Source of the DNA: a virus
DNA: 47,842 nucleotides
Virus record (IMG/VR): IMGVR_UViG_3300007276_000010
Location: 1-47,842 of that record
Direction: 5' to 3' (one strand)
The notes beneath the pieces are model-generated. The model saw only the letters and a list, made by a program, of their open reading frames with translations. It did no database searches and had not been told where the DNA came from. Both the position numbers and the translations under genes were made by a program. Numbering within the stretch: the stretch's first letter is position 1; each line of letters starts with the position of its first letter. Of the stretch, positions 4,071 to 24,561 are shown piece after piece.

Positions 4071-4298
4071 TTAGAATTTAACGCTTTGAACGACTTTTGA
4101 TTTACCTTTTCGTTCTTGTATTATTTCAAGACTGTCCCAGCTACAAGCTTTTGCCAACTCATGAAACTTATCATCGGCTTGAGTAAATGTTAAGTCCGTG
4201 AATATCGTTACAGTCCCTTGGCTCACGCGTCGTACATTGAATGTGTAACCTCTCAGTCTAGCGTACGTGTTGACCATCCATTCTATTATGATCATCAC
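4071..4298 (-). CDS. Hypothetical protein
   Basis: A 75-residue protein without recognised motifs; the N-terminus is mildly hydrophobic. The start overlaps the stop of the upstream leftward gene by 4 bases (ATGA), so the two form one operon read from the promoter near 5100. Confidence 0.6.
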   Translation of the reverse strand: MMIIIEWMVNTYARLRGYTFNVRRVSQGTVTIFTDLTFTQADDKFHELAKACSWDSLEIIQERKGKSKVVQSVKF

Positions 4299-5056
4299 TC
4301 ACCGTCCTTAGTGCGTAGGCACGTTATGCAATTACCTGTTGATACGTAGCGCCAATGGTCGTGTCCGTGTTTGCATTTCTGGCCAGTGCGATACACTTTC
4401 ATGTCATACGCGCGTGCATCTTCGCGACTGAGGATCATGTCAGGGTTAGCGTGCATCATAATCGAGTCGGGCGTTGAGCGGTCGTCGTTCTCGGGTTCAG
4501 CACGTTCGGCGCTACCTGGAGTATAGTCACATGCTTCGCATGTCTTGTCGTCAACGCTACGTAGCGTTATCTCGCCACACGAGCGACACGGGCTTGTGGA
4601 CACGTATTGTGAGTCACCGTCGGCGATAGCTTGCTCACGCGGTTTAAGTGCTGTTTTACATTGCATACATGGCGTGCCGTCGCTGCTCGATACTCTCACA
4701 TGTCCGTGTGTCGTACATGGTTCATAGTGTAATGTGTAACCGTCATTTGAACGTATCAATTCACGCATTGCTTTAACCTCACCGAGCAACATTGGGTGGT
4801 TAAATACTTCTGGTACGCCCTTTGGCCACATCGATATTGAGTCGTCATTAATGCGTGAATAGTGTCTCGTTAGCTCAATTTTATATCGTTGACACATGAT
4901 ACATTTTCCACTTTTAGTGTATCGCGTAGAGCTACTATTGCAGATTTCGCACTTTTTATAGTCAATATAGAAGCGGTGACGTATCTTTGCGGACACGCTT
5001 CGTAGGTCAGGATGTGGTGCTAATCCTCCCGTAGAGATTTTAAATAGCTTTCCCAT
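4295..5056 (-). CDS. Multi-zinc-ribbon protein (four Cys modules)
   Basis: A 253-residue protein with four successive cysteine modules: CEICNSSSTRY...CIMC, CTTHGHV...CMQC, CRSCGEI...CEAC and CKHGHDHWRY...CITC. The last module resembles the N-terminal zinc module of the HNH endonuclease at 10181 (CKYGHVAERK...CSAC). No nuclease core is visible, so this could be a nucleic-acid-binding protein built from homing-endonuclease zinc modules; that is inference. First gene of a two-gene leftward operon. Confidence 0.7.
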   Translation of the reverse strand: MGKLFKISTGGLAPHPDLRSVSAKIRHRFYIDYKKCEICNSSSTRYTKSGKCIMCQRYKIELTRHYSRINDDSISMWPKGVPEVFNHPMLLGEVKAMRELIRSNDGYTLHYEPCTTHGHVRVSSSDGTPCMQCKTALKPREQAIADGDSQYVSTSPCRSCGEITLRSVDDKTCEACDYTPGSAERAEPENDDRSTPDSIMMHANPDMILSREDARAYDMKVYRTGQKCKHGHDHWRYVSTGNCITCLRTKDGE

Positions 5057-5117: not shown

Positions 5118-5228
5118 TTATGACGTAATAATCACTGTTTCTAAGTTCGGGGTAAAACTCAGGTGGTAGCTGAAACGCAGTCGTGGCGCGGGCTGTAGAG
5201 GATTGGACATGTTACCCCGCTTTTTTCG

Positions 5229-5425
5229 ATACTCCCTATAGTATTCTTGTATATTCATTGTATATGTATATATATTATACCCTATATACTATACTCTCTT
5301 ATTATACATACTCATTATTCTTACAACATTAAAAGATAGAGGTATAGAGGTAAGTATGCTAAGTCATTGATTGTTAAATTGCTTTTAGTACCTTCAAAAT
5401 TACCTGAGTCGTTTTGATTCGGGGT
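5229..5425 (+). repeat. AT-rich noncoding element, copy A
   Basis: Homologous to 17943-18130. It begins with 27 identical bases (ATACTCCCTATAGTATTCTT and the next seven), runs through a TATA-rich stretch and ends in a conserved block with AGGTAAGTA, GTCATTGATTGTT, TTTTAGTACCTT, TTACCTGAGTCG and TTCGGGGT. AGGTAA (5348-5353) and TTACCT (5400-5405) form an inverted repeat. It lies directly upstream of the terminase genes. It may be a late promoter/leader, a replication origin or a structured RNA; the function is unknown. Confidence 0.75.
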
Positions 5426-5498
5426 ACTGCTCGATGTGTGGCGTTATGGGGCGAATTGTGGCATTATTGACGGCATGTTAGATAATGGGCTTAGGGTA

Positions 5499-6179
5499 AT
5501 GAAAATACGCATCGGGGATCGCACTGTGGAGTTGAGCGAAGAACAGCTCACCGCGTACGGTAATTTGACGAAATTGCAAAAGGGCGTTGCGCTCGCTTCG
5601 CTTGGTGGCAGCGAACCAGCCGAAGCGCATCGTATCGGCGGCGGGAAATGTAAAAACGAACCGCAGCGTTACGACCTTGGTATTCAGATCCTAGTCAATC
5701 CTAGCGTGAAGCGTTTCATGGCTACAATGGCCGTCAATCCTAGTGCTGAAATCGCCTCAGCGGTACTGTCACGCGACGAAATACTAATCGACCTTACCGA
5801 CATAGCCCGAACAACAATCGACCACGTAGCGACGTTCTCAGAGCGTCCGTTGGTCGACATGGAAAACGGCATGAAAGTGTTAATGTCGACGATACATGTT
5901 CGGTCAATTAGCGAAATACCAGAGGGAGCCAGGAAAGCGATTAAATCCGTTAAGCAAACGAAAAACGGTTTAGAAATCGTTATGCACGATTCGTTAGTTG
6001 CTCGCAAGCAGTTTTCCGAGATGTGTGGATACAACGCCCCGACCAAAACCGAAATTAGCGGACCAGGTGGAACGCCGATCCAAATCCAAGAAATACCAGA
6101 CGAAGAACTCGAAGCGAAATTGAAAGCGTTGGGTCTTGGTCGTTATCATAACCAGCTAGGGTCGAAACGTGTCGAGTAA
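5499..6179 (+). CDS. terS: Terminase small subunit
   Basis: About 226 residues from the ATG at 5499, which has an AGGG ribosome site close upstream; in-frame ATGs at 5436 and 5475 are alternatives. Directly upstream of, and overlapping, the large terminase gene. The middle carries predicted helices, and the C-terminus has a segment GPGGTPIQIQEIPDEEL typical of phage small terminases. It should recognise phage DNA and hand it to the large subunit. Assignment rests on position and overall resemblance. Confidence 0.75.
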   Translation: MKIRIGDRTVELSEEQLTAYGNLTKLQKGVALASLGGSEPAEAHRIGGGKCKNEPQRYDLGIQILVNPSVKRFMATMAVNPSAEIASAVLSRDEILIDLTDIARTTIDHVATFSERPLVDMENGMKVLMSTIHVRSISEIPEGARKAIKSVKQTKNGLEIVMHDSLVARKQFSEMCGYNAPTKTEISGPGGTPIQIQEIPDEELEAKLKALGLGRYHNQLGSKRVE

Positions 6180-7668
6180 TAACGCGATTTACGAAACGCT
6201 ACGTAAACGGGCAATCGAAGGAGCACGCGAATCGATGCTCGATTTCACGTTGTTTACGAAACCAGATTACGAAACGGGTTGGTTCAACGAACTCGTGTGT
6301 GCAGAACTCGACCAGTTCTTGCTCGACTGCGAAGCGGGTTTATCGCCGCGCTTAATGATATTCGCACCGCCACGCAGTGGTAAATCTGAATTAGCGTCTC
6401 GTCGTTTCCCTGCTTACGCCATGGGTCGCTTTCCGAAATGGAATGTGATTTCCACATCGTACGCTTCACCACTTGCCGAACGCATGTCACGCGACACCCA
6501 ACGTATTATCGACGCGGGCGAATACGAGTCAGTGTTCCCAGATACGCGACTCGTTCAGGGTCGTTCGATGGGACGTGGAGCAAGTAACACGGCTACGTTG
6601 TGGGAACCTGTGACAGCCGACGGGGCGTTGGCGGGAGGTTCGTATCGTGCGGCGGGTGTTGGTGGTGGTATTACCGGTCAGGGTATGAATATCGGTATTA
6701 TTGATGACCCGGCAAAAGACTACAAACAAGCCTCGTCGCCAGCGTATCAAGAAACCGTAATCGATTGGTATGATACGACGTTCTACACGCGACGAGACCC
6801 AAAAGTTAACGGTATTATTATCATTCTCACACGTTGGCACAAAAATGACTTAGCGGGTCAATTACTCGCTCGTGCAGCTGACGGTGGCGAGCAATGGCGT
6901 GTCGTATCGTTCCCTATGGAATGGGACCACGACGAACCCGAAACGCACACACTGAACGACATCACGTACAAACTGCGCGAGAAAGACGATATATTATTCC
7001 CTGAGCGTATGCCACGTGCGTTCGTCGAACAATGTAAAGCGTCCGGCTCGCTGACGTGGAATGCGCTTTATCAACAACGACCAAGTGCGAAGGGTGGTTC
7101 GTTGATCCGTTCCGAATGGTTCGGTGAGTACCAGGTATTGCCGAAGTTGAAATACTCGTACATCATTGGCGATACAGCACAGAAAATCAAAGAACGAAAC
7201 GACTTCTCAGTGTTTGAACATTGGGGTGTCGGCGAGGACGGTTATCTGTACCTTGTGGATTTAGTGCGCGGTAAATGGGAGTCGGACGAACTCAAGAAAC
7301 GCTGCGTTGCGTTCTGGCAAAAAGCGCGAGCCGTCCACGGAATGTCGTGTCGTAAATTGCTCATTGAGGACAAAGCGAGCGGTACGGGCCTGATTCAACA
7401 AATACGTAAATCAACTAAGCCATTGATCCCCGTGTTGGCGATTCAACGAAACACTGATAAACTAACACGATTCATGGACGTGCAAGGGTATATCGAGTCG
7501 GGTTATGTCAGATTACCAAGTGACGCACCGTGGCTTAACGATTTCTTAGCTGAGTGTGAAGGGCTTCAAAGTGACTTCAAAACGCACGACGACCAAATCG
7601 ACCCGATGATCGACGCCATTGACCAAATGCTCGATAAGAAACGACCGAACCTCAAGGATTACTTGTAA
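6169..7668 (+). CDS. terL: Terminase large subunit
   Basis: A 499-residue ATPase-nuclease that packages DNA. Walker A is APPRSGKS (residues 66-73), Walker B is IGIIDDP (about 175-181), and LTRWH is typical of the coupling region. The nuclease half has a first acidic residue in IIGDTAQK, then IEDKASGTGL, and a late HDDQID motif. It starts with GTG inside the end of terS. The portal gene begins at its stop codon. Confidence 0.95.
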   Translation: MSSNNAIYETLRKRAIEGARESMLDFTLFTKPDYETGWFNELVCAELDQFLLDCEAGLSPRLMIFAPPRSGKSELASRRFPAYAMGRFPKWNVISTSYASPLAERMSRDTQRIIDAGEYESVFPDTRLVQGRSMGRGASNTATLWEPVTADGALAGGSYRAAGVGGGITGQGMNIGIIDDPAKDYKQASSPAYQETVIDWYDTTFYTRRDPKVNGIIIILTRWHKNDLAGQLLARAADGGEQWRVVSFPMEWDHDEPETHTLNDITYKLREKDDILFPERMPRAFVEQCKASGSLTWNALYQQRPSAKGGSLIRSEWFGEYQVLPKLKYSYIIGDTAQKIKERNDFSVFEHWGVGEDGYLYLVDLVRGKWESDELKKRCVAFWQKARAVHGMSCRKLLIEDKASGTGLIQQIRKSTKPLIPVLAIQRNTDKLTRFMDVQGYIESGYVRLPSDAPWLNDFLAECEGLQSDFKTHDDQIDPMIDAIDQMLDKKRPNLKDYL

Positions 7669-9053
7669 TGACAGACCTTAAACCACCAGTATTAACAAAC
7701 CTTGACGGACTCACCAATGTGATGACCGGACTCGGTACGGCTAAATCGAAGCGGTCGTATAACGAATGGTTACCCGCGTTACTGAACGATTACGCTAGTC
7801 TCGATAATTGTTATCAGTCCAATTGGATAGCGCGTAAAATATGCGACATTCCAGCCGAGGACATGACGCGCGAATGGCGTCGAATCAAGTGTGACGGCGC
7901 GGAAGAAATCCAAGCGCTCGAACAGCAATTACTATTACCTAACGTCGTGCAAGAAGGCGTTACGTGGGGTCGATTGTATGGTGGCGGTGGCGTGCTGATG
8001 ATAACGGACCAAGACTTAACCAAACCGTTAAACGTTGGTCGTATCAAGAAGGGATCGCTCAAACGATTGCTCGTTCTTGACCGTTGGGACATGCAAGCCC
8101 AAACGATTAACACGTGGGACGTTCTCGCATCGAATTACCTGAAACCAGAACAATACACCGTTCGTGGCGGGTCGATGCAAATCCATCATTCACACTTTGC
8201 ACGATTCAGTGGTGAGCGTTTACCGTTGCGTTACATGGCGCAAACTCAGGGATGGGGCGATTCGGTTTTACGTAAATGTTTAGAAGATATCACCGATATG
8301 GTCGCGGCCAAAAACGGTATTGCCGAGTTAATGCAAGAAGCGAATATCGACATTATCAACCGTGAAGGGTTGACCGATGAGCTAAGTACCGACCAAGACG
8401 ACATGATTGTTAAACGTTACGAATTGTTCAGCATGATGAAGTCGAATATCAACCTGGCGTTACTCGACAAGGAAGAAGTGTTCAACCGCATGACGCTCAA
8501 TTTGTCAGGTGTCGCGCCGGTGATTGAACAGTTCATGACGTGGATTAGTGGTGCGGCCGATATTCCCGTCACGCGTATGTTCGGTACTAGCGCGAAGGGC
8601 ATGAACGCCACGGGTGAAGGTGACGACCGTAATTACAACAACTCGATACGTGCTGGTCAACGTTCGTATTTAGCCGAACCGATGCGCACGATTGACGAAG
8701 TGTTGGTTCGTAGCGCGTTAGGTTATTGGCCGGACGATTACGATTATGTGTGGAATCCACTGTCGTTACCAAACGACTTAGAGAACGCTCAAGCCGAACA
8801 GTTACGTGCGCAGAAGCACATGCAGTATCTCGAAGCTGGTATCGTTCAGAAGTCGCAAATTATGCGCGAGTTACAAGCTGCCGAAGAATACCAGTATGAC
8901 GAGGAGGAACTCGACGAACTTGAATCTCTTGAAGAAGGTAACATGTTCGACGAACCAGTCGATGAGAACGAAGCGGATCCACTCATACCAACTACGGTGA
9001 ACCAAGACGAAGACCCGTTAGCGTTTGCCGCTCGATACGTTGAGCAGATGTGA
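7668..9053 (+). CDS. Portal protein (DUF1073 family)
   Basis: A 461-residue protein resembling the DUF1073 phage portal family: an N-terminal region with LDNCYQSNWIARKICDIPAE, a central RFSGERLP, and ITDMVAAKNGIAELM before an acidic C-terminal tail (YDEEELDELESLEEG). It forms the DNA entry ring of the capsid and the docking site for the terminase. Its start overlaps the terminase stop. Confidence 0.85.
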   Translation: MTDLKPPVLTNLDGLTNVMTGLGTAKSKRSYNEWLPALLNDYASLDNCYQSNWIARKICDIPAEDMTREWRRIKCDGAEEIQALEQQLLLPNVVQEGVTWGRLYGGGGVLMITDQDLTKPLNVGRIKKGSLKRLLVLDRWDMQAQTINTWDVLASNYLKPEQYTVRGGSMQIHHSHFARFSGERLPLRYMAQTQGWGDSVLRKCLEDITDMVAAKNGIAELMQEANIDIINREGLTDELSTDQDDMIVKRYELFSMMKSNINLALLDKEEVFNRMTLNLSGVAPVIEQFMTWISGAADIPVTRMFGTSAKGMNATGEGDDRNYNNSIRAGQRSYLAEPMRTIDEVLVRSALGYWPDDYDYVWNPLSLPNDLENAQAEQLRAQKHMQYLEAGIVQKSQIMRELQAAEEYQYDEEELDELESLEEGNMFDEPVDENEADPLIPTTVNQDEDPLAFAARYVEQM

Positions 9054-9058
9054 TGAGT

Positions 9059-9090
9059 ACGCCCCTTGATGATAAGTCTCGGGGCGTTTC
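9059..9090 (+). terminator. Possible terminator after portal
   Basis: ACGCCCC (9059-9065) pairs with GGGGCGT (9081-9087) across a 15-base loop, followed by only a short T run. A weak terminator or mRNA 3'-end stabiliser. Confidence 0.45.
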
Positions 9091-9102
9091 ATCGTGTCAA
9101 CA

Positions 9103-9118
9103 TTGACAACACCGCCAA
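9103..9118. promoter_or_regulatory. TTGAC-N6-GTCAA operator (site 2, one mismatch)
   Basis: TTGAC-AACACC-GCCAA, 35 bases upstream of the extended -10 at 9153. Read leftward it is followed by GGTATATATTGG, resembling the leftward promoter at 11643. Confidence 0.5.
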
Positions 9119-9149
9119 TATATACCCACTCGTGATACGTGTCAAGCGG

Positions 9150-9158
9150 TGTTATACT
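9150..9158 (+). promoter_or_regulatory. Extended -10 promoter for the Mu F-like gene
   Basis: TGT followed by TATACT (9153-9158), 30 bases upstream of the ATG at 9188. The same extended -10 form occurs at 21238 and 24565. No good -35 is visible. Confidence 0.5.
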
Positions 9159-9187
9159 AATCGTATCGACACGACTGGACCAATCAC

Positions 9188-10084
9188 ATGACACTCGAAG
9201 AACAATTAGCCATGCCCACACGCAAGCGTCCAAAAGGTACGAAACCCGACGTTGCGGCTGGTATATCCTATAATGTGGAATTACAACGCCTCGTGCGTGC
9301 CGTAACGCGTGATATTAACGCTAATTTAATGCCGACGGTTCGTAACCTGGCGCCCGAGTATCAACGTGACTCAGCGTCGGACGTGACGGACAGTGCGCTT
9401 GTGATGGACTCGTGGGTCGATGTATTAACCAATGCGTTACGTGCGTTACGTATTCGCTGGTCGAGTCCACAGTTTCAAGCGTTGGCCAATGACGTAGCGC
9501 GTCGGTTCGTAACGAGCGCGAACAACTCGAATCGTCGTCGTACCGAACGTGATATGGGTATCGATATATTTAGCGATTCAACGACGATTAGCGAGTACGT
9601 ACAGGCGTCGATAGCTGATAATGTACGACTGATACAGTCAATACCTGAACAGTATTTAACGCAGGTCGAGTCGATTGTCATGACGAACGTTCGCGGTGGC
9701 GGTCGTCCGTCGAGTATCGCTAAGTCACTTCAACAACAATTTGGCGTTACGGAGCGTCGCGCTAAGATGATAGCACGCGACCAAACCGCTAAGGTTAACG
9801 GGCAGCTAAACGCCAAACGTCAACAGGATGTGGGTTTCGAATATTTCATTTGGACAACGTCGAATGACGAGAGGGTGCGTGATAGACACCAACACATAGC
9901 CGAAAAGACTACTGCGTATGGTAAAGGAGTGTACAAATGGAGTAACCCACCGCTAAGTGAAAAAGGTGAACCGATACTTTGCGGAACCGATTATCAATGT
10001 AGATGCATAGCCACCCCTATTTCAAATGAAGAAGTTAAAATGAACCAACGTAAAGGTTTGACTAACCCTAGTGTAAAACGTTAA
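9188..10084 (+). CDS. Mu gpF-like minor head protein
   Basis: A 298-residue protein with the C-terminal phage Mu F domain: RAKMIARDQTAKVNGQL, then FIWTTSNDERVRDRHQ, and CGTDYQCRCIATPI. The family forms a minor capsid protein linked to the portal and head assembly. The last ~200 bases are more AT-rich than the rest and lead straight into a homing-type endonuclease gene, so the 3' end may have been replaced by co-conversion; that is inference. Confidence 0.85.
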   Translation: MTLEEQLAMPTRKRPKGTKPDVAAGISYNVELQRLVRAVTRDINANLMPTVRNLAPEYQRDSASDVTDSALVMDSWVDVLTNALRALRIRWSSPQFQALANDVARRFVTSANNSNRRRTERDMGIDIFSDSTTISEYVQASIADNVRLIQSIPEQYLTQVESIVMTNVRGGGRPSSIAKSLQQQFGVTERRAKMIARDQTAKVNGQLNAKRQQDVGFEYFIWTTSNDERVRDRHQHIAEKTTAYGKGVYKWSNPPLSEKGEPILCGTDYQCRCIATPISNEEVKMNQRKGLTNPSVKR

Positions 10085-10085
10085 A

Positions 10086-10223
10086 ATGCAAAAAGTGGCT
10101 ACCTTTAGCGGGGGAACGTCGGGACGTAGAACCGATTGCCACACATCCTCAATTCTGCGCAACTACTCTACGGTGGTATTATGCAAATCATTTCTCGTTC
10201 GGAAGCTAAACAACAAAACTTAA
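10086..10223 (+). pseudogene. Possible PP-loop gene remnant
   Basis: An open frame of 45 codons begins MQKVATFSGG followed by TSGR. This resembles the N-terminus of PAPS-reductase-like phage proteins (compare MKKVVSFSGGRTSAYL at 45258), but the frame then loses any resemblance and stops inside the endonuclease gene. It may be what is left of a gene displaced by the endonuclease. A chance match cannot be excluded. Confidence 0.25.
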
Positions 10224-10795
10224 AACACTACTTCACTGGTAAACCATGTAAATATGGACACGTTGCTGAACGTAAAGTCGCTAATTCAAATTGTTCGGCG
10301 TGCAATAAAGATATAGTGTCCAGGTTCTATGCTAATAATAGAGATAAAGTGAAGAACAAATCCAAAGAGTATTACTCAGATAATAGCGATAAGATTAAGA
10401 AATATCAGAAAGAATATAACAAGATAAATAAAGATAAAATTAACAATAGACATCAAGAACGATATGATTCTGAACCGGATTATAAGATGAAGTTTAGACT
10501 AAGAGGTATACTGTCTAAGGTGTTGAAAAGAACGGGCACGGTGAAAGACTTAAAAGCTCACGCAATATTAGGATATAACTGTATAGACCTTAGACGTCAC
10601 CTTGAAGATTCTTTCGTTGACGGCATGTCGTGGGACAACTACGGTGAATGGCATATAGACCACATAGTGCCAATTAAAGTTTTACTAGACTATGGAGTCA
10701 CCGACGTGGCTTTCATAAATGGACTGGATAACTTACAACCGTTATGGGCCAAAGATAATCTTAAGAAAGGTGACTGGTCTAACCTGAGTACATAA
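10181..10795 (+). CDS. HNH homing-type endonuclease
   Basis: About 204 residues from the ATG at 10181 (GGTGG upstream); an ATG at 10136 is an alternative. The N-terminus has a zinc module CKYGHVAERK...CSAC, the middle is a lysine-rich helical linker (NKDKINNRHQERYD), and the C-terminus carries the HNH core WHIDHIVPIKVL ... GLDNLQPLWAKDN. It is AT-rich and unlike its neighbours in codon use, as expected for a mobile free-standing endonuclease between head genes. Confidence 0.85.
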   Translation: MQIISRSEAKQQNLKHYFTGKPCKYGHVAERKVANSNCSACNKDIVSRFYANNRDKVKNKSKEYYSDNSDKIKKYQKEYNKINKDKINNRHQERYDSEPDYKMKFRLRGILSKVLKRTGTVKDLKAHAILGYNCIDLRRHLEDSFVDGMSWDNYGEWHIDHIVPIKVLLDYGVTDVAFINGLDNLQPLWAKDNLKKGDWSNLST

Positions 10796-10817
10796 AAAAA
10801 GGGCGCTAAATGCGCTC
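10794..10817 (-). terminator. Leftward rho-independent terminator
   Basis: Read leftward, a 6-bp stem GAGCGC/GCGCCC (one G-T pair) is followed by seven T. It ends the leftward 10.8-11.6 kb island just before it would run into the endonuclease gene. Confidence 0.7.
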
Positions 10818-10823
10818 CGTCAA

Positions 10824-10982
10824 CTATCGTACACCTCCACATAATCTAACGTAATTTTCGTACTCGTTCATGTAGTGTTCGGACTGTTCGGCGCGTGCAT
10901 CGGCCGTCAGTGTCGCGTCGTCTAATACAGCTTGATACGCGTTGAACATCTCGTCGCGCTTCTTTTCGTACCATGTTTTCAT
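10824..10982 (-). CDS. Small hypothetical protein
   Basis: A 52-residue, charged, probably helical protein (starts MKTWYEKKRDEMFNAYQ). A good ribosome site (AAAGGTGAT) lies upstream and the ATG overlaps the previous stop (TAATG). Last gene of a three-gene leftward operon. Function unknown. Confidence 0.65.
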   Translation of the reverse strand: MKTWYEKKRDEMFNAYQAVLDDATLTADARAEQSEHYMNEYENYVRLCGGVR

Positions 10983-11161
10983 TATTTATCACCTTTGCAA
11001 AATTCGATAACGCTATTCGATGAGTCGGTATTAAGTACGTTATTACCTTCGAGGTCATATACTCTAAAATTCCAACAAGTACAAGTTTCGGGATGACACA
11101 TGTAGTGTCCCGATTCGCTTTTAAAATCTTTGAATTGTTCGTCTAACTCGAATGCTCTCAT
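10982..11161 (-). CDS. Small hypothetical protein with Cys cluster
   Basis: A 59-residue protein with MCHPETCTCW near the middle, a possible metal site. The start overlaps the upstream gene by 4 bases and its stop overlaps the start of the next gene. No family recognised. Confidence 0.6.
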   Translation of the reverse strand: MRAFELDEQFKDFKSESGHYMCHPETCTCWNFRVYDLEGNNVLNTDSSNSVIEFCKGDK

Positions 11162-11610
11162 CGTACCGCCCCGTTAAGTTCGTCTAAAATTAATTGTGAA
11201 TATCCGCAGATGTCGCGCCAATTATCATCATACATCGGATCACCATTTAGAATACGACCGATTTTGTGTTGTATCATTTCGAGCGCTTCGCGTTGACTCG
11301 GTGTTAAACATTCCCAGTTCGGCGTTTCGCGCATGATACCTTTCAAGTCTTGCATAATCACCGACCCGTCTTTGAACTTACCGTATCGTTCACCACGTTG
11401 CGTGATGGTCGTGTCGATATCGGTTGGTGCGGTTGTTGGTCGTGATTCGATAATTTCCCAATATGGATCGCCAATAATGAAATGGTCACCGGTATCGTCT
11501 AAGCATTCGTATTCCTTACCGTTGAAATATGCGAAATCCACTTCGCCATTTTTATAACGTAATGCATGGGTAGCTTCACTACTCGCTTTACTCCAATCTA
11601 TTTCATTCAT
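11158..11610 (-). CDS. DUF6378-like phage protein
   Basis: A 150-residue protein. The C-terminal half (RGERYGKFKDGSVIMQDLKG ... LTPSQREALEMIQHKIGRIL) matches the widespread phage family DUF6378, of unknown function. The N-terminal half is a short separate beta-rich region (HALRYKNGEVDFAYFNGKEY). First gene of the leftward island, behind a promoter that carries the shared operator. Confidence 0.75.
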   Translation of the reverse strand: MNEIDWSKASSEATHALRYKNGEVDFAYFNGKEYECLDDTGDHFIIGDPYWEIIESRPTTAPTDIDTTITQRGERYGKFKDGSVIMQDLKGIMRETPNWECLTPSQREALEMIQHKIGRILNGDPMYDDNWRDICGYSQLILDELNGAVR

Positions 11611-11628
11611 ATCGTTCTCGCTTCGTTG

Positions 11629-11644
11629 TTGACAATTACGTCAA
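11629..11644. promoter_or_regulatory. TTGAC-N6-GTCAA operator (site 3, perfect)
   Basis: TTGAC-AATTAC-GTCAA lies between the -10 of the leftward promoter and the gene at 11610, so bound protein would cover its start site. Confidence 0.6.
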
Positions 11645-11695
11645 TATATACCACAAATTAATAGTTTGCAACACCTTTGTGCATTACGTTATACT
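11643..11695. promoter_or_regulatory. Divergent promoters sharing one -35
   Basis: The palindrome TTGCAA (11666-11671) serves as -35 in both directions. Leftward: 17-base spacer, -10 TATATT (11643-11648). Rightward: 18-base spacer, -10 TATACT (11690-11695). The rightward start site lies inside the longest open frame, which supports the TTG start at 11724 for the protease gene. Confidence 0.55.
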
Positions 11696-11723
11696 AGCGT
11701 CAATACAGTTAGAGGTTAAACAC

Positions 11724-12821
11724 TTGAAACACATTATCGTTAGCGAGACATTCGACTTTGCACCGTCATCACGTGTTTACACTGACAACGGTTTTTTGCG
11801 TGTCACAGGTAAAGCTGCGCGTACTGGCGTTTATCAATATTTAGCATCCGAACTAGGTCTTACCGACCGCGCCCCGAATACAATCGTTAACGTTTACCGT
11901 CCAGCCGATGAGGTGTTCAACGCCGACTCGCTCGCGACGTATTCGAACGTTGACGTAACGAACGACCACCCAAGCGCTATGGTCGACGCCAAGACGTACA
12001 AATCCACAAGTGTGGGTCACGTTATCGGTGCGACACAGAATGGTGACTTCGTTGATGTGGAATTAATCATCAAAGACGCCCAAGCGATTAGTGACGTTGA
12101 ATCGGGCAAGTCTCAACTATCACCAGGTTACACCGCCGTTTACGTTGCTGAACTAGGTACGACCGACACGGGTGAATCATACGAATTTAAACAAACCGGA
12201 ATTGATGTCAATCACGTCGCGATCGTTAAGCGTGGACGTGGTGGCGCACAAGTCCGTATCGACGACAACCAAGGAGTAACACCCATGATTAAGGTAACAC
12301 TTGATTCGGGTCGCTCGATTGATGTTGCAGACGAAGCGGTCGCCGCACTCGTAACTGACTCAATTGAACGTTTGACCCAACGCGTAACAGACGCAGAAGC
12401 CAAGGCCGATAAAGCCGAAGCGGAAAAAGACATGAAACAAGAAGAACTCGAAGCGGAAAAAGCGAAGTCTAACGACGCAGCTATCAGCGAACGCGTTCAA
12501 GCTATCGCAGCGATGCAAGCAAGCGCACGTAAAGTTGTTGGTGACGAGTTCACTTGCGATAGTGTGAACACATTGGACATTCAACGTGCAGCGTTAACAG
12601 CTAAACGTCCAACTACTGATTGGGCTACCAAGTCCGAAACGTATGTTCAAGTCGCATTCGACGCAGCGTTAGAACTTGCCGACGCGGAACCCGCTCAGTC
12701 GGTTGATCAACTCGCACAGTTTTCGAAAGACGCTGCTAACGCAGTGGTTCCGGTAGTCGCACGTAAATCAGCATACGACGCTCACAAAGAAAGTCAGGCT
12801 AACGCTTGGAAGGGGAAATAA
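11724..12821 (+). CDS. DUF2213-type prohead protease fused to scaffold
   Basis: About 365 residues from a TTG start at 11724 with AGAGG upstream; an ATG at 11679 lies before the promoter start site. The N-terminal ~190 residues match DUF2213 proteins, likely prohead serine proteases: VTNDHP holds a candidate His and GKSQLSPGY a candidate Ser. The C-terminal part (VTDAEAKADKAEAEKDMK onward) is a coiled coil typical of scaffold. A strong internal start at 12285 could make scaffold alone. Confidence 0.8.
   Translation: MKHIIVSETFDFAPSSRVYTDNGFLRVTGKAARTGVYQYLASELGLTDRAPNTIVNVYRPADEVFNADSLATYSNVDVTNDHPSAMVDAKTYKSTSVGHVIGATQNGDFVDVELIIKDAQAISDVESGKSQLSPGYTAVYVAELGTTDTGESYEFKQTGIDVNHVAIVKRGRGGAQVRIDDNQGVTPMIKVTLDSGRSIDVADEAVAALVTDSIERLTQRVTDAEAKADKAEAEKDMKQEELEAEKAKSNDAAISERVQAIAAMQASARKVVGDEFTCDSVNTLDIQRAALTAKRPTTDWATKSETYVQVAFDAALELADAEPAQSVDQLAQFSKDAANAVVPVVARKSAYDAHKESQANAWKGK
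12285..12821 (+). CDS. Nested scaffold protein (internal in-frame start)
   Basis: Inside the protease gene an AAGGAG (12271-12276) stands 8 bases before an in-frame ATG at 12285. Starting there gives a 178-residue protein with only the short beta part (MIKVTLDSGRSIDVADEA) and the coiled coil. This copies the lambda C/Nu3 arrangement, where the scaffold is the C-terminal part of the protease gene. The ribosome site is better than that of the full gene. Expression is inferred. Confidence 0.55.
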   Translation: MIKVTLDSGRSIDVADEAVAALVTDSIERLTQRVTDAEAKADKAEAEKDMKQEELEAEKAKSNDAAISERVQAIAAMQASARKVVGDEFTCDSVNTLDIQRAALTAKRPTTDWATKSETYVQVAFDAALELADAEPAQSVDQLAQFSKDAANAVVPVVARKSAYDAHKESQANAWKGK

Positions 12822-12822
12822 C

Positions 12823-13305
12823 ATGTCAGTATTAGGTGGCAATAAAATCGATCATGGTGTCTCGTATGCTGGTCAAGTTTCAAGCTTGCAGTTATGTAAC
12901 GCCGTATCGAAATTAAACAAAGGTACTGTTGGTATTGCATTCGGTAAGGGTGTTGTAACTGACGGTGAAGACGGCGCGAAATTACCGTTAAGTGGTTCAA
13001 CGGCCGCTCAATTCATCGGTGTCGTTAAGTACGAATTAAACCGCGCGCGTACATCTACTGAATCGGGAGCAACAGCTAAGTACGACATGACTGTTGTAAC
13101 CCACGGTGAAATTTGGGTCAAGACGTTAGATACCGTAGCGAAAGACGCACCGGTTTATCTACGTGTGGGCGCAACTGGCAACGGTGACTTCTCAGGTGTC
13201 GTTGGTACTGGCGTAACTCTAGGTGTTCTAGTGCCTAACGCTAAATTCACAAGTGGCGGCGCTGCTGACTCACTGGTTAAAATTTCACTAGGATTAGGTG
13301 GCTAA
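12823..13305 (+). CDS. Head decoration/cement protein
   Basis: A 160-residue, glycine- and beta-rich protein between the protease-scaffold and the major capsid gene, the usual place of a capsid-stabilising decoration protein. Features include GVVTDGEDGAKLPLSGSTA and repeated small beta turns. It resembles structural cement proteins of DUF2184 capsid phages. Assigned from position and composition. Confidence 0.65.
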   Translation: MSVLGGNKIDHGVSYAGQVSSLQLCNAVSKLNKGTVGIAFGKGVVTDGEDGAKLPLSGSTAAQFIGVVKYELNRARTSTESGATAKYDMTVVTHGEIWVKTLDTVAKDAPVYLRVGATGNGDFSGVVGTGVTLGVLVPNAKFTSGGAADSLVKISLGLGG

Positions 13306-13306
13306 C

Positions 13307-14305
13307 ATGCAAAAGAATCTTATTAGCGTCGTATTGGACGCAGAATACCCACAGTTGGGTTTAACGGTTGGTCACACTGTATTGTTCCGTGACAATCTAC
13401 CTACTATGGACGACGGTATGGGTTTCTATATTTCTCAGCTCGCTAACTTAGAAGCTAAGATTTACGAAGCAAAATATACCAACATCAATTTCGCTGAAAT
13501 GGTGCCAATTAACACTAACGTTCCCGAGTGGGCCGATTCGTGGGATTATATTTCTTACGACGCTGTAACGCTTGGTAAGTTTATTGGTTCAAGTGCCGAC
13601 GACCTTCCGACTGTAGCGCTATCAGCTAACAAGACGTCTGTTCCGATTGGTTACGCTGGTAACGCGTTCGATTACTCGTTAGACGAATTACGTAAAACTC
13701 AACAGTTACGTATTCCAGTTGACGCCACTAAGGGTCGCGCTGCATTCCGTGGTTCACAAGAACATACTCAGCGTGTAGCTTACTTTGGCGACGCTTCTCG
13801 CGGTATGACAGGTTTGTTTAACAATCCTAACTTAGCATTAGATAACTCTACTGTTGACTGGGCTACTGCCACAGGTCAAGAAATTATCGACGACATGAAC
13901 TCGTTGTTAATCAAAGTGTGGATTGATTCAGCTAACACGCATATTCCAAACGCATTAGCGCTTGATTCGTCTCGTTACGCAATCTTAACGTCACGTCGTA
14001 TGGATATAGGTACTGACACAACTATCATGCAGTTCTTCATGCTTAATAACTTGTACACTACTACAACCGGTCAACAGTTACGCGTGTTCCCACGTTTGCA
14101 ACTTAAAGGTGCTGGTGTGGGTGGTAAGGACCGTATGTTAGCTTACGAGCTAAACGACGATAACCTAGGTATGGTTAACCCTATCCCTTGGCGCGCACTT
14201 GCTCCACAGATGAAAGGACTGAATATCTTAGTACCTGCGGAATACAAAGTTAGCGGCGTAGAATGGCGTTACGTATTCTCTGGTGCTTACAGAGATTCAC
14301 TGTAA
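13307..14305 (+). CDS. Major capsid protein (DUF2184 family)
   Basis: About 332 residues from the ATG at 13307 (AGGTGG upstream); a GTG at 13298 overlapping the previous gene is an alternative. The sequence matches DUF2184 capsid proteins: VPEWADSWDYISYDAV, then VPIGYAGNAFDYSLDELRKT, and a central FRGSQEHTQRVAYFGD. It forms the icosahedral shell. A 12-bp structured hairpin follows the gene (14320-14366). Confidence 0.85.
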   Translation: MQKNLISVVLDAEYPQLGLTVGHTVLFRDNLPTMDDGMGFYISQLANLEAKIYEAKYTNINFAEMVPINTNVPEWADSWDYISYDAVTLGKFIGSSADDLPTVALSANKTSVPIGYAGNAFDYSLDELRKTQQLRIPVDATKGRAAFRGSQEHTQRVAYFGDASRGMTGLFNNPNLALDNSTVDWATATGQEIIDDMNSLLIKVWIDSANTHIPNALALDSSRYAILTSRRMDIGTDTTIMQFFMLNNLYTTTTGQQLRVFPRLQLKGAGVGGKDRMLAYELNDDNLGMVNPIPWRALAPQMKGLNILVPAEYKVSGVEWRYVFSGAYRDSL

Positions 14306-14319
14306 ACTAGTAAAACTTT

Positions 14320-14366
14320 AAGTTGCTTCGGGACAATGTGGAAGGCCCGCCACACCGAAGCGACTT
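14320..14366 (+). other. Long hairpin after the major capsid gene
   Basis: AAGTTGCTTCGG (14320-14331) pairs with CCGAAGCGACTT (14355-14366), 12 pairs with one G-T; a second hairpin GTGG/CCAC sits in the loop. No T run follows, so it looks like an mRNA 3'-end protector or attenuator rather than a plain terminator. Confidence 0.6.
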
Positions 14367-14397
14367 ATTACTAATCTCGGGCTGAGGGCTATTTACC

Positions 14398-14736
14398 ATG
14401 TTATTAAAAAATACAGTTGCACGACTAATCACGATTAATGGCGCGTTCGAAAACGGCGCACGAGTGGTTACTTACCAAATCAAACCAGGTGACAACCCAT
14501 CGGTTGAAGTGCCTAATGATTTGTGCGATAACGCATTCGTTCAGTCACTAATCGCTGACGGTTCGTTACGTGTCGAATGTGAAGACGACGCAAGCGCACC
14601 AGTTGAAGCGGTGTCAGCGTATGAGTTAATGAGTAAAGCGGATTTAATCGCATTATGTGAGGCTCAAGACATTGAAGTCGGTTCGCGTGACACAGTTAAA
14701 TCATTAGCTGCCAAACTCGAAGCGCACGACGAGTAG
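14398..14736 (+). CDS. Small head-associated protein with HeH/SAP-like C-terminus
   Basis: A 112-residue protein. The C-terminus, LMSKADLIALCEAQDIEV followed by LAAKLEAH, looks like an HeH/SAP-type helix-extended-loop-helix motif found at the ends of several phage structural proteins. The N-terminal ~60 residues are beta-rich. Lies between capsid and completion genes, so a minor virion protein is likely. Confidence 0.6.
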   Translation: MLLKNTVARLITINGAFENGARVVTYQIKPGDNPSVEVPNDLCDNAFVQSLIADGSLRVECEDDASAPVEAVSAYELMSKADLIALCEAQDIEVGSRDTVKSLAAKLEAHDE

Positions 14737-14759
14737 TCGACGCTAACATAATCATTATT

Positions 14760-14785
14760 ACGGCTGCTTAATTGCGGCCGTTTTT
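14760..14785 (+). terminator. Rho-independent terminator
   Basis: An 8-bp stem ACGGCTGC/GCGGCCGT (one G-T pair), 6-base loop, then five T. It lies between head genes read in the same direction and so should reduce rather than stop downstream expression. Confidence 0.75.
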
Positions 14786-14802
14786 GTAAAAGGGTACATA
14801 AA

Positions 14803-15075
14803 ATGTCAGACACATTAGCTAACGTAAAGTTACCAGCAAAAACACCCGTGGATTTATACGCTGCGACAGGTATCGCAGTCGGTACGCAAATATCAGTACA
14901 GAACATAACCACAGGTGACGTTCGTGTTTATTCGGGCGCTACGTCACCAAACATGGCGACAAGCGGTTCGGCGTTGTTACGACCTGGTATTACGGCTAAA
15001 AACGACTCGGGCGATGCGGGTGCGTGGGCGTGGAGTACGTTACCGTCTGCCGTCAACGTGAAATTGGTGGTGTAA
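14803..15075 (+). CDS. Small virion-associated protein, hypothetical
   Basis: A 90-residue beta-rich protein (KTPVDLYAATGIAVGTQISV, then a segment on VRVYSGATSP). Its compact form and location suggest a head decoration or completion protein. No family assigned. Confidence 0.55.
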   Translation: MSDTLANVKLPAKTPVDLYAATGIAVGTQISVQNITTGDVRVYSGATSPNMATSGSALLRPGITAKNDSGDAGAWAWSTLPSAVNVKLVV

Positions 15076-15076
15076 T

Positions 15077-15904
15077 ATGGCGTGGTTAGCGGATAACCCG
15101 CCAGAAGTCGGACCATTATTTTTCGGTGGTGGCTCTAATATACTACCCATCCCAGTATTTACGCTGCAACCACAATCGCAAACTGTCGATGAATATGCAA
15201 TGGCAACATTTACCGCTGCTGCTGACAACGCAACAAGCTATCAATGGTCAAAGAATGCCGCTGGCGTCGGCACTGATAGCGCTAGCTACTCATTAACAAC
15301 AACTACCGCAGATAATGGCGCTGTTGTTAATGTAACGGCTACAGGTGATGGAGGTTCGACTGTAAGCAATAACGCAACATTGAGCGTTACTAGCTATGCA
15401 TATCAACTTGATTCACTTACAAGTAAGTTTGTTCTATCTTCACCAATTACGGTGGCAATAGGTGACAAGATTACAGTTAATGTTATTTGCTCCCCAAATA
15501 CAATAACGGGATCAAGTTATTCCCGCTTTATAGGTAGCGAGGATTTCACTATCACGGTTGATACTGGGGTTGACGGCAATAAATTCAGGCTATTAGGCTG
15601 CACCGCTAAGCTTGGCGGGGTTTCAATAGCTAGTGATGTAACGCCAATCCCTACTGATTTAGTAGCTAGAGATCTTGAGGTTACGTTAACAAAATCAGGT
15701 ACTATCGCAGCAATTGCTGGTTTAAAAGATACATCAGGGAGAAGTATCAACGCTAAAATGCGATATCTTAGCTTTACTCGTGCTGCTGGTAATAGATTCA
15801 TACCATTAAACAAAGTATCACAAGGAGGCGCTCAGCTTCCCACTGTTGGCACTATTAGCGCATCAATACTTAATTATAATCCAGCCGGGTGGATGTCAGT
15901 ATGA
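15077..15904 (+). CDS. Virion protein with Ig-like domain
   Basis: A 275-residue protein. Residues ~28-110 look like an immunoglobulin-like fold: FTLQPQSQTVDEYAMATFTA, then YQWSKNAAGV and DNGAVVNVTATGDGGSTVS. Ig-like domains are common on phage surfaces and are thought to bind cells or carbohydrates weakly. The part after ~residue 110 is different in composition and codon use and may be an exchanged domain. Function inferred from the fold only. Confidence 0.65.
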   Translation: MAWLADNPPEVGPLFFGGGSNILPIPVFTLQPQSQTVDEYAMATFTAAADNATSYQWSKNAAGVGTDSASYSLTTTTADNGAVVNVTATGDGGSTVSNNATLSVTSYAYQLDSLTSKFVLSSPITVAIGDKITVNVICSPNTITGSSYSRFIGSEDFTITVDTGVDGNKFRLLGCTAKLGGVSIASDVTPIPTDLVARDLEVTLTKSGTIAAIAGLKDTSGRSINAKMRYLSFTRAAGNRFIPLNKVSQGGAQLPTVGTISASILNYNPAGWMSV

Positions 15905-16194
15905 TGCGATTAACAGAATGGCTTAACTCTGGCTTATATGTATTTGTGGCGCTTTCTGAGAAAGGCTATCAAGATAATGAACTAGCTAAGAAGTCATGGC
16001 CTGACGCAGCTATATATGGAGATTACCGTTTAGTTAATTTTCATAAGGACAAAGCTCAATACTTTTTAGATTATTTAGATGGTATTGGATTGACTGCTAG
16101 TTACGGCATAAGCGAGTCAACGCCGATGCTGTTAACTTGGGATGAAGCAATGCAATTCGCAGCACAGTTTACTATGATAGAGGGACAATTATGA
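15901..16194 (+). CDS. Hypothetical protein
   Basis: About 97 residues, starting with ATGATG that overlaps the previous stop; an ATG at 15889 is an alternative. AT-rich with codon use like the second half of the preceding gene, so both may have entered together. Sequence such as WPDAAIYGDYRLVNFHKDKA gives no recognised family. The next gene overlaps its stop by 4 bases. Confidence 0.5.
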   Translation: MMRLTEWLNSGLYVFVALSEKGYQDNELAKKSWPDAAIYGDYRLVNFHKDKAQYFLDYLDGIGLTASYGISESTPMLLTWDEAMQFAAQFTMIEGQL

Positions 16195-16727
16195 GTTTTA
16201 ATATTGGTGATTTTGGTTTAACTCCATCGGATGTTGGCGGGATAATCAGCGGTCAATCTGGTTGGGCGATATTCGTCGACGGCGTTCACACTCTAGCTAG
16301 TCCGCAGGTTATCGTCGAAGGTGCGACCGCTACGTTAACGAACAACGCGGTGACGAGCATCACGACACAGACACCTTCCGACGCTACCGCCGCGATGTGG
16401 GACGGCTTAACAAGTAAATTCGGACCGATACACGTCGACGACTATTACTTGTGGTTTGTACGATTCAAAGCTAAAAATACAGCACCAAATGGTGGTTATA
16501 TCGACGCAGGCATTAACATCGGCGGCACGTTCGGAAGGTTATTTGATGAGAGTCATTTATTCGTTCGAGGCGCTAACGTTGAACAGTCATTTAACTGTTT
16601 AATGGGTGGCTATAGTGGCGCTACGTTTATGTCCAACGGTGGGTTACCTAGGGCGACGAGCGGTAACGGAACAACTTCAATATACGCCAAAGAATATCAC
16701 GTCGTTAGATTACACAAGGGTCGATAA
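16191..16727 (+). CDS. Putative virion protein, hypothetical
   Basis: A 178-residue, beta-rich, glycine-rich protein (for example GGYIDAGINIGGTFGRLF). Composition returns to that of the native head genes. Linked by overlaps to its neighbours in the head operon. Perhaps a capsid fibre or decoration protein; not recognised. Confidence 0.5.
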   Translation: MSFNIGDFGLTPSDVGGIISGQSGWAIFVDGVHTLASPQVIVEGATATLTNNAVTSITTQTPSDATAAMWDGLTSKFGPIHVDDYYLWFVRFKAKNTAPNGGYIDAGINIGGTFGRLFDESHLFVRGANVEQSFNCLMGGYSGATFMSNGGLPRATSGNGTTSIYAKEYHVVRLHKGR

Positions 16728-16728
16728 A

Positions 16729-17160
16729 ATGAGCGAACCAATAACACCGGAAATGATAACAGCGTTTCGAAGCGCTCAACCTGCGTTTAGTAACGTAACG
16801 ATGTGGCCTGATAATGTGGTCACGGAAGCGTTCTGCGAGGCGCTTCCCGAATGTGGTGGTCGTGGGTGGGGGGTATTGGATATCAACGACTGTCAGAACT
16901 TCAAGAGGCGTGGTGTGTTCTTATATGCTGCTCACCTGTTGAGTATTACTTACAACACCGCAGCGGGCGCCACAGACCCGTCAAACATCAACGCGGCGGC
17001 ACGTCTTAACCTCGCTGGTAAATCGGTCGGTGACGAGTCGGTTAGCTTTCGCATAACCCAGATTCAAAATTCTTCTGATGATTTTCTGTCGTTGACTTTG
17101 TACGGTGTTCAATATTTGAGGCTACGACGACGCGCAGCTATGGGCGCGTTAGCAGTGTAA
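16729..17160 (+). CDS. Head completion/adaptor protein (DUF4054-like)
   Basis: A 143-residue protein starting at 16729 with AAGGG upstream. The arrangement ITAFRSAQPAFSNVTMWPDN, an alanine-rich middle with WGVLD, and FLYAAHLLSI matches the DUF4054 family, found at the head-tail joining position of many myo- and siphoviruses. It likely forms an adaptor ring below the portal. The upstream in-frame ATG at 16606 lies inside another gene and is rejected. Confidence 0.75.
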   Translation: MSEPITPEMITAFRSAQPAFSNVTMWPDNVVTEAFCEALPECGGRGWGVLDINDCQNFKRRGVFLYAAHLLSITYNTAAGATDPSNINAAARLNLAGKSVGDESVSFRITQIQNSSDDFLSLTLYGVQYLRLRRRAAMGALAV

Positions 17161-17168
17161 TAAGTTGA

Positions 17169-17194
17169 CCCGACACGCAACGTAACGTGTCGGG
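17169..17194. terminator. Hairpin between convergent genes
   Basis: A 9-bp stem CCCGACACG/CGTGTCGGG with an 8-base loop between the rightward head operon and the leftward clamp gene. T tracts are poor on both sides, so strength is uncertain. Confidence 0.55.
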
Positions 17195-17202
17195 TGTTAC
17201 GA

Positions 17203-17757
17203 TTAAAGACGTGTAGGCATCAACGCGACTTGAAGCGTATCGACTTCATTGAATATACGAGTGATCAATACCGAGTCACTAGCGTCACGTAATGTAAACT
17301 TACCAACTTTGAAAGTGTGGTCATGTACTACAAGTTCACACGCTTTACATACGCGAGCCAGATGATTGAAGTTTAAACCTATCTCACTGCACGACGTACT
17401 AGTCGCGCCACTATATAAACGCATGGCACGCGCTAAATCAGGATAACGACCGTCGATAAATTCAACTTTATATTCACCGATTCGAGCTAACTCGTTGCTG
17501 ATACTGAATGTTGGTTTCGCTTTTGGTCCGAATAATTTAAGTAAATTGGCGAGCGATACACCACATAAAATCACGTCTGTATTAGGTTCAACGTTAAACA
17601 TTTCAGATTTAATCGTTAAAATCATACCACTGTGACCGTCAGACGCTTCCATTTTAACGATGCCGTCTTCACCACACTTGATATGAATACCGTTTAAATA
17701 ATAACGAATGTCTTTTTTTGCAGCAATCGTTAACAAACCTTTAAGTGTTTTTACCAT
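17203..17757 (-). CDS. Reduced DNA sliding clamp (beta-clamp-like)
   Basis: A 184-residue protein resembling the C-terminal two-thirds of bacterial DnaN: KDIRYYLNGIHIK then ASDGHSG near the N-terminus (compare DVRYYLNG and TDGHRL in E. coli beta), VEFIDGRYPD in the middle, and a C-terminal MPTRL matching the MPMRL end of E. coli beta. At half the length of a bacterial clamp it probably has two domains per subunit, and a ring might need three subunits. It would tether the phage family B polymerase. Leftward gene with its own operator-promoter. Confidence 0.7.
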   Translation of the reverse strand: MVKTLKGLLTIAAKKDIRYYLNGIHIKCGEDGIVKMEASDGHSGMILTIKSEMFNVEPNTDVILCGVSLANLLKLFGPKAKPTFSISNELARIGEYKVEFIDGRYPDLARAMRLYSGATSTSCSEIGLNFNHLARVCKACELVVHDHTFKVGKFTLRDASDSVLITRIFNEVDTLQVALMPTRL

Positions 17758-17808
17758 CTTCGTATTTCCCCGTAGCGCAACGAAGCGTATCCTCGTCGTC
17801 TGATTTAC

Positions 17809-17836
17809 ATACTATCACTATTGACGCTGTTGTCAA
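17809..17836 (-). promoter_or_regulatory. Leftward promoter with operator (site 4, perfect)
   Basis: On the minus strand: -35 TTGACA (17831-17836), 16-base spacer, -10 TAGTAT (17809-17814). The repeat TTGAC-GCTGTT-GTCAA (17821-17836) covers the -35 and spacer. Drives the clamp gene. Confidence 0.7.
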
Positions 17837-17942
17837 TCATTAATTTACCCGAACTTTGAGTTAACGACACACGGTTTGAGGTGGCGTAAAGTATTGATTA
17901 GAAAGAGTTACCTCGTTTATGCTGCAAACCCCGTATAGTTCA

Positions 17943-18130
17943 ATACTCCCTATAGTATTCTTGTATATTATCTGTATATGTATGTATGATCTATACTGTA
18001 TATACTATATGCATACTTATAATTCTTACAGTTATAGAAAGTAGAGTTACAGAGGTAAGTACGTTAAGTCATTGATTGTTTAAATGGTTTTAGTACCTTG
18101 AAATTTACCTGAGTCGTTTTTGTTCGGGGT
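17943..18130 (+). repeat. AT-rich noncoding element, copy B
   Basis: Homologue of 5229-5425: 27 identical bases at the left end, a diverged TATA-rich centre and a conserved right block (AGAGGTAAGTA, GTCATTGATTGTT, TTTTAGTACCTT, TTACCTGAGTCGTTTT, TTCGGGGT). AGGTAA (18053-18058) and TTACCT (18105-18110) form an inverted repeat as in copy A. It precedes the tail module. The rest of the gap 17837-18189 holds no gene that I can see. Confidence 0.75.
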
Positions 18131-18189
18131 TATTACCACATCACCTAAATTGTGTTAATATTGAGTCATTACTAATCACGAGTATCGTC

Positions 18190-18792
18190 ATGTTCAAACC
18201 TAAAGTCACCGTGACCAACGTTCAACAATCACGAGACGCTATTCAAAAAGCGTTACGCGCGTTGATGGTTGACAAATACGTGACGGTTGGAATACATGAA
18301 GACGCTGGGAATCACGAGTCGGACGACATCACGAACGCTCAATTAGGCGCCGTGCATGAGTTCGGTTCGGAGATTACTCACCCCGGCGGCACGTCATACG
18401 GTTACGCGAGTAAAGCGGCGGCGGATCGTAACGATGTGAGGTTCCTCAAGTCCGGCCGTGGTTACATGGAATTAGGCGTTACTGGTCCGCACATTATCAA
18501 GATACCAGCACGCCCATGGTTAAACCCTGGCGTCGCGTCTGGTAACGCTGAATATCTGACAATCATTGAAAAGACACTCAGTGACGGCGGCACGATGGAC
18601 CAAGCATTGAACAAAGTCGGAGTCGTGGCGGTCGGTAAGGTTCAAAAATACATGACGGATTTACGCACGCCACCAAACGCGGCAAGCACGATTAAAAAGA
18701 AAGGTTCATCAAATCCATTAATCGACTCGGGCGCATTGCGTCAAAGCGTAACGTATAAAATCATATCCGGTAAACCAAACGAGGGCTTGTAA
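18190..18792 (+). CDS. Tail completion / virion morphogenesis protein (HK97 gp10-like)
   Basis: A 200-residue protein. ITNAQLGAVHEFGSEITHPG, then IIKIPARPWLNPG and a C-terminal NPLIDSGALRQSVTYKI are the marks of the HK97 gp10/Mu gpG-like morphogenesis family. Such proteins act at the head-tail interface. First gene of the tail module, directly behind noncoding copy B. Confidence 0.75.
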   Translation: MFKPKVTVTNVQQSRDAIQKALRALMVDKYVTVGIHEDAGNHESDDITNAQLGAVHEFGSEITHPGGTSYGYASKAAADRNDVRFLKSGRGYMELGVTGPHIIKIPARPWLNPGVASGNAEYLTIIEKTLSDGGTMDQALNKVGVVAVGKVQKYMTDLRTPPNAASTIKKKGSSNPLIDSGALRQSVTYKIISGKPNEGL

Positions 18793-21118: not shown

Positions 21119-21169
21119 AATAACCACCTTTCATTAACGCAACAAGGCTAATCCTCGTCGTTACCTGTC

Positions 21170-21197
21170 ATTATATTACTATTGACGGTTGTGTCAA
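21170..21197 (-). promoter_or_regulatory. Leftward promoter with operator (site 5, perfect)
   Basis: On the minus strand: -35 TTGACA (21192-21197), 16-base spacer, -10 TATAAT (21170-21175). The repeat TTGAC-GGTTGT-GTCAA (21182-21197) covers the -35. This intergenic unit is duplicated at 24496-24570. Confidence 0.75.
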
Positions 21198-21234
21198 GCG
21201 TTGCAACGTAATTATTTTTAAATTATCAACCGCG

Positions 21235-24464: not shown

Positions 24465-24495
24465 GTCGTTTACTCCGTTTCGTTGTTGATACGTC

Positions 24496-24523: not shown

Positions 24524-24561
24524 GCGTTACGACTCAATTATTTTTAAATATCTCGGGGCGG

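Follow-up and report, generated by a model that had tools for sequence, protein, structure and literature searches.

The window (the whole stretch of DNA analysed here) is a virus record and 47,842 bases long; its bases 1-123 are identical to 47720-47842, and because of these identical ends it was taken as a circularised assembly of ~47.7 kb. Its gene content marks it as a phage with a contractile tail (terminase, portal, protease, capsid, sheath, and baseplate), which also encodes a DNA polymerase, a ssDNA-binding protein, an exonuclease, a helicase, and a large primase of its own. Two divergent intergenic gaps hold copies of the same element: copy A is located between a minus-strand gene (4295-5056) and terS, and copy B between another minus-strand gene (17203-17757) and the neck1 gene. 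According to a sigma-70 scan, the sigma-70-like promoters of the flanking minus-strand genes sit outside the element. The features of the two gaps and of the primase gene are as follows.

47146-47842 (+): PrimPol/SF3-helicase gene, 5' part; 796 aa in all, spanning the circular assembly ends; putative initiator
1-1817 (+): remainder of the same gene; 1-123 duplicates 47720-47842
5146-5426 (no strand): copy A, complete proposed origin unit, divergent gap before terS
5149-5154 (+): box GGGGTA, copy A left
5160-5164 (+): box CAGGT, copy A left
5213-5218 (-): box TACCCC, the reverse complement of GGGGTA, copy A left
5229-5330 (no strand): AT-rich core, copy A, 80% A+T over 80 bp; putative site of unwinding
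5339-5352 (+): direct box pair GAGGTA-TA-GAGGTA, 8-bp period, copy A
5360-5372 (-): IHF consensus match AATCAATGACTTA, copy A
5389-5405 (-): inverted box pair TACCT...TACCT, 12-bp period, copy A
5421-5426 (+): terminal box GGGGTA, copy A
5459-5467 (+): extended -10-like TG-G-CATTAT, downstream of copy A and upstream of the likely terS start; read by eye
5499-6179 (+): terS (terminase small subunit), likely start ATG 5499; heads the head operon downstream of copy A
17846-18130 (no strand): copy B, whole putative origin unit, in the divergent gap that precedes neck1 (tail completion)
17846-17882: left boxes, copy B: TACCC 17846-17850 (-) and GAGGT 17878-17882 (+)
17887-17899 (-): IHF consensus match AATCAATACTTTA, copy B left block
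17909-17933 (-): left boxes, copy B: TACCT 17909-17913 and ACCCCG 17928-17933
17943-18035 (no strand): AT-rich core, copy B, 79% A+T over 80 bp
18044-18057 (+): direct box pair, copy B: GAGTTA (degenerate) and GAGGTA
18065-18077 (-): IHF consensus match AATCAATGACTTA, copy B right block
18094-18110 (-): inverted box pair TACCT...TACCT, copy B
18126-18130 (+): terminal box GGGGT, copy B
18153-18161 (+): extended -10-like TG-T-TAATAT, downstream of copy B; read by eye
18190-18792 (+): tail completion/neck1 gene; heads the tail operon downstream of copy B

The gene at 4295-5056 (-) is fast-evolving, has segments in common with an endonuclease-VII-like protein, and is retained next to copy A by most relatives (22-54% identity), L125 being an exception (L numbers designate loci of related phages). 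Related repeats at 17808-17842, 21167-21223, and 24493-24549 contain a TTGAC-N6-GTCAA palindrome within the sigma-70-like promoters of minus-strand genes and probably represent a shared operator; the same palindrome type also precedes copy B in phages KpV52 and PEAT2.

Anatomy and conservation of the duplicated element

A BLAST search of 5214-5425 against the window's own genome aligned this segment with 17928-18130 (79% identity over ~212 bp, E 1.7e-48) and returned no third copy in the window genome. An earlier note on this DNA had described a duplicated element with 27 identical nucleotides (ATACTCCCTATAGTATTCTTGTATATT) at 5229 and 17943, a TATA-rich centre, AGGTAA/TTACCT boxes, and TTCGGGGT, all of which were recovered, and the additional motifs that it had placed around copy A (TTCGGGGT at 5146, ACTCAGGT at 5157-5164, and ACCTGAGT at 5402-5409) lie at exactly these positions. 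The duplication is real, but its limits had been drawn too narrowly, since the comparison with relatives assigns the left-hand boxes to the conserved unit, which starts ~85-95 bp further left (5146 in copy A, 17846 in copy B).

The full unit extends over ~280-295 bp and is divided into a box-bearing left block, an AT-rich core of ~100 bp, and a right block, with RRGGT/GGGGTA boxes in both orientations (consensus roughly RRGGT(A)) and IHF-consensus sites placed around the core. The right block is ordered as a direct box pair 8 bp apart (GAGGTATAGAGGTAA), an IHF-consensus site, inverted boxes 12 bp apart (TACCTTCAAAATTACCT), and GGGGTA; across relatives, the direct pair with its 8-bp period is the best-conserved feature. 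A second conserved left block (CTGAAACGCAGTCGTGGCGCGGGCTGTAG, or CCCAGTGGTGACGCGGGTTGTAG in L014/L016) was observed at 5166-5199 of the window, where other copies have the left IHF site, and is also present in L017, L018, and L129.

Two copies at equivalent gaps (before terS and before neck1) were found in 9 genomes examined, i.e., the window, five metagenomic phages (3300006920_000138, L005/L006; 3300025645_000012, L010/L088; 3300007276_000012, L119/L090; 3300019762_000002, L124/L092; 3300038759_000120, L073/L095), and the cultured Pectobacterium phage PEAT2, Klebsiella phage KpV52, and Edwardsiella phage PVN06. Lack of conservation in both gaps among relatives had been named in advance as the observation that would speak against the element, and both gaps proved conserved. 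Copies A and B are alike in KpV52 (96%) and in PVN06, a likeness that is not general. With the KpV52 element as BLAST query, 71 cultured phage records were hit at 160 places, including dozens of Klebsiella phages/jedunaviruses, with two or three places per record among the matches listed, and the annotation beneath these matches reads 'none', 'hypothetical protein' or 'promoter'. An exact 22-mer had no match in bacterial genomes.

In 22 elements, RRGGT occurs 184 times (67.4 expected, maximum 88 in dinucleotide shuffles) and the IHF consensus WATCARNNNNTTR 23 times (0.8 expected, maximum 5 in the same kind of shuffles), totals that are descriptive, as the box pattern was picked after inspecting the elements and the 22 elements are mutually related. 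The A+T content of the core ranges from 72 to 88% over 80 bp. A predicted IHF-binding site that matches the consensus lies between the boxes; an exact match is missing in 6 of the 22 elements, and the genomes L127, L129, PEAT2, and PVN06 have none. Box enrichment within a single element is not significant by itself for L124A and PEAT2B. An unbiased scan for 6-mer clusters ranked the element first in L017, L018, L019, L125, NrS-1, and phi105, as well as in the part of KpV52 containing copy B; in the window, where the boxes are degenerate, it was not top-ranked.

Association with the primase-helicase type

The protein encoded by the window's PrimPol gene matches the NrS-1 polymerase HBD (PF22763, 73.8 bits, cut-off 27.9) and the SF3 helicase domain DUF5906 (PF19263, 55.7 bits, cut-off 27.6), and the NrS-1 polymerase is the biochemically known member of this PrimPol family. 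The C-terminal domain had no match in a PDB sequence search and was modelled poorly (pLDDT 39), so that a DNA-binding fold is only hypothetical for the window PrimPol.

The presence of the element was compared with the relatedness of the terminase large subunit (TerL) and of the PrimPol. Four loci (L121, L125, L127, and L129), in which TerL is 37-39% and PrimPol 59-72% identical to the window, have the layout and the box type of the window. Their TerS is at best weakly similar to that of the window, and in L125 and L127, which still have their boxes in common with the window, no TerS similarity was detectable. The opposite situation was found in L017-L019, where TerL is 76-77% identical and the PrimPol-helicase has no BLAST similarity to that of the window. 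Here the gap before terS has an equivalent layout with other boxes (GTTACA 12 vs. 0.6 expected, GTTACA 7 vs. 0.6, and GGAACA 12 vs. 0.2, respectively), while RRGGT is at background level or below in these arrays. The L019 primase-helicase corresponds to phrog_35045, with Prim-Pol and DUF5906 matches just under the Pfam cut-offs, and a scan for relatives of this PrimPol returned L019 alone. A separate 141-aa protein, encoded just before the box array of L018 (1810-2235), resembles by eye the C-terminal end of the neighbouring primase-helicase and is possibly a box-binding regulator.

Among 76 TerL loci, all those with a window-type PrimPol (L008, L010, L014, L016, and L073) carry the element. 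The loci L022-L082 except L073 (TerL mostly 65-69% identical) lack both the element and a close PrimPol in the sequence available, a comparison in which many loci are partial and relatedness was ignored. Judged from these sequences, the element follows the NrS-1-like PrimPol/SF3-helicase gene and not the terminase, and the box sequence appears to go with the cognate PrimPol type, a correlation drawn from three replacement cases (L017, L018, and L019).

The NrS-1 polymerase recognises the template sequence 5'-TTTGGTTA-3', and GTGA/GTGG as well (PMC8718748); such recognition sites, counted twice in NrS-1, have been suggested as a possible origin (PMC7102993). We found one exact match to TTTGGTTA in the NrS-1 genome (AB746912), as opposed to those two. 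This match falls within a GTTACA array (11-12 boxes) that lies between PrimPol and terS and makes up ~1.1% of the genome, so that the position of the match is suggestive, not proof. The annotated gene NRS1_29 (L135:17055-17456) coincides with the array and is probably not a gene. The location of the template site inside the repeats suggests where the self-priming polymerase may start in vivo. In Bacillus phage phi105 (L136:3860-4090), the primase-helicase gene is directly followed by an AT-rich stretch with GTAAC boxes in opposite orientation at its two sides, an arrangement that we regard as a candidate origin. The array lies directly 3' of the primase-helicase gene in L019, NrS-1, and phi105; the window copies are ~3.3 and 16 kb from the PrimPol gene, i.e., not directly 3' of the initiator gene.

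Candidate replication origins and alternative readings

The two copies at conserved positions, the enrichment of boxes and IHF-consensus sites, the AT-rich core, and the association with the PrimPol type make it likely, in our view, that each copy is a PICI-like iteron origin of replication and that the pair serves the NrS-1-like PrimPol-helicase encoded by the phage itself. The earlier note had left four functions side by side (late promoter/leader, replication origin, packaging site, and RNA switch), among which the data favour the origin and contradict the packaging site and the RNA switch. According to the origin model, the PrimPol-helicase would bind the short boxes that flank the AT-rich core, with IHF bending the DNA between the boxes and bringing them together; helicase rings would then assemble and melt the core, and the PrimPol domain would prime there for extension by the phage DNA polymerase. 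Both copies would fire, and the complex at each of them may also time late transcription. GC skew has no switch at either copy and tracks gene strand. A DnaA-dependent iteron plasmid origin was rejected, as DnaA boxes (TTWTNCACA) are absent from both elements (genome-wide 5 vs. 6.0 expected).

The proposed origins were compared with known systems. The layout of PICI/SaPI origins, in which a Rep or Pri-Rep helicase acts with iterons, has been reported as common to PICIs and absent from every other bacterial replicon known (PMC6092414). The window resembles them in that the iteron sequence seems to go with the cognate initiator helicase, and differs in being a tailed phage and not a satellite, in having two copies per genome, and in the IHF-consensus sites added between the boxes. 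We do not class the element as a PICI origin, because its copies do not immediately follow the initiator gene, as a PICI origin does, and its replication role is a prediction; it would nevertheless work like one, in a different kind of replicon, with two copies and with IHF-consensus sites added, and would extend the PICI-type layout to tailed phages. NrS-1 has a homologous PrimPol-HBD-SF3 helicase and an array between PrimPol and terS that holds the published recognition sequence, but its boxes are GTTACA instead of GGGGTA, and its single array is without the IHF consensus. In P4, separate cis elements with short repeats are bound by a primase-helicase, and the P4 alpha primase is of the Toprim type, whereas the window protein has NrS-1-type domains (Pfam found the NrS-1 HBD and DUF5906 and no Toprim). 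The P4 alpha/ori1/crr system is partly summarised in PMC4234260, together with the pRN1 origin, which is served by a protein with an AEP primase and an SF3 helicase. The latter is a PrimPol-helicase origin as proposed here, yet it consists of a 100-nt stem-loop and has no iterons.

If the copies were origins and nothing else, their precise placement in front of the head operon and the tail operon would be left unexplained. Each copy might be a combined origin and late-operon switch, the same boxes being bound by the PrimPol-helicase, an extension that we put forward tentatively and hold to be on the unlikely side. If true, head and tail genes would be expressed mainly from replicating DNA, and there would be a reason for the retention of exactly two copies, one in front of each late operon, from metagenomic to Klebsiella, Pectobacterium, and Edwardsiella phages.

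Improbable, by our assessment, is a late-gene control element without any replication start, at which a phage regulator and IHF would act on the boxes to activate or repress the two late operons. Such control would fit the position of the copies directly in front of the head operon and the tail operon in every two-copy genome, as well as the extended -10-like motifs after both copies, to which comparable sequences exist in relatives, in some of them with a box near the -35 position. These motifs, however, are unsupported by the promoter scan: a search with the sigma-70 consensus at both gaps did not detect them and gave no convincing promoter for the plus-strand operons. Moreover, the AT-rich core and the left block are conserved though they lie > 100 bp from the -10-like motif, the box type tracks the primase-helicase, and the NrS-1 and phi105 arrays directly follow the primase-helicase gene, with that of phi105 not before terS. 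A late-promoter role for the DNA just downstream of each copy is possible and compatible with an origin.

A packaging site (cos/pac) would have the terminase small subunit bind boxes around an IHF bend, as in lambda cosB, where repeated TerS sites are joined with an IHF site near the terminase genes. Copy A does adjoin terS, but copy B precedes a tail gene at a distance of 12 kb, the boxes are kept in L125 and L127 in spite of no detectable TerS similarity, L017-L019 have other boxes despite their closely related TerL, and TerL relatives that lack a window-type PrimPol lack the element. This reading was rejected as very improbable: neither presence nor sequence of the element follows the terminase, and the association expected of a cosB-like site was tested and is not seen.

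The inverted boxes permit a hairpin in single sequences, on which a structured RNA leader, riboswitch or put-like antiterminator could be based. The element has no Rfam match at the gathering score, it folds no better than shuffled sequences (z -0.98), and its IHF-like central motif is found in both orientations among relatives. A covariation search had been proposed as a check; the consensus of 14 aligned right blocks amounts to 4 pairs (-0.12 kcal/mol), i.e., no conserved structure. An RNA element was rejected on these grounds (Rfam, shuffle-controlled folding, and consensus folding) and hardly merits belief. We give as little credence to a recently duplicated mobile or recombination element (MITE, att or homing target), since the terminal-repeat-like ACCCCG/CGGGGT at the ends and the endonuclease-VII-like gene next to copy A are outweighed by there being two copies only, in a fixed pair of gaps across diverged genera, with no copies at varying sites seen in close relatives.

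No origin was found described in the literature for jedunaviruses and their relatives. For this common group of lytic Klebsiella phages, the origin model provides a pair of candidate origins in each genome, the boxes within them, and a candidate initiator, and it thereby becomes testable in cultured phages. Two minor observations were made in related genomes: terL of L020 and L021 contains a large insertion with intein-like sequence, and PVN06 (L134) has dense 6-mer clusters (ACCTGC x11, CTGCTA x9) at L134:40576 and L134:33401.
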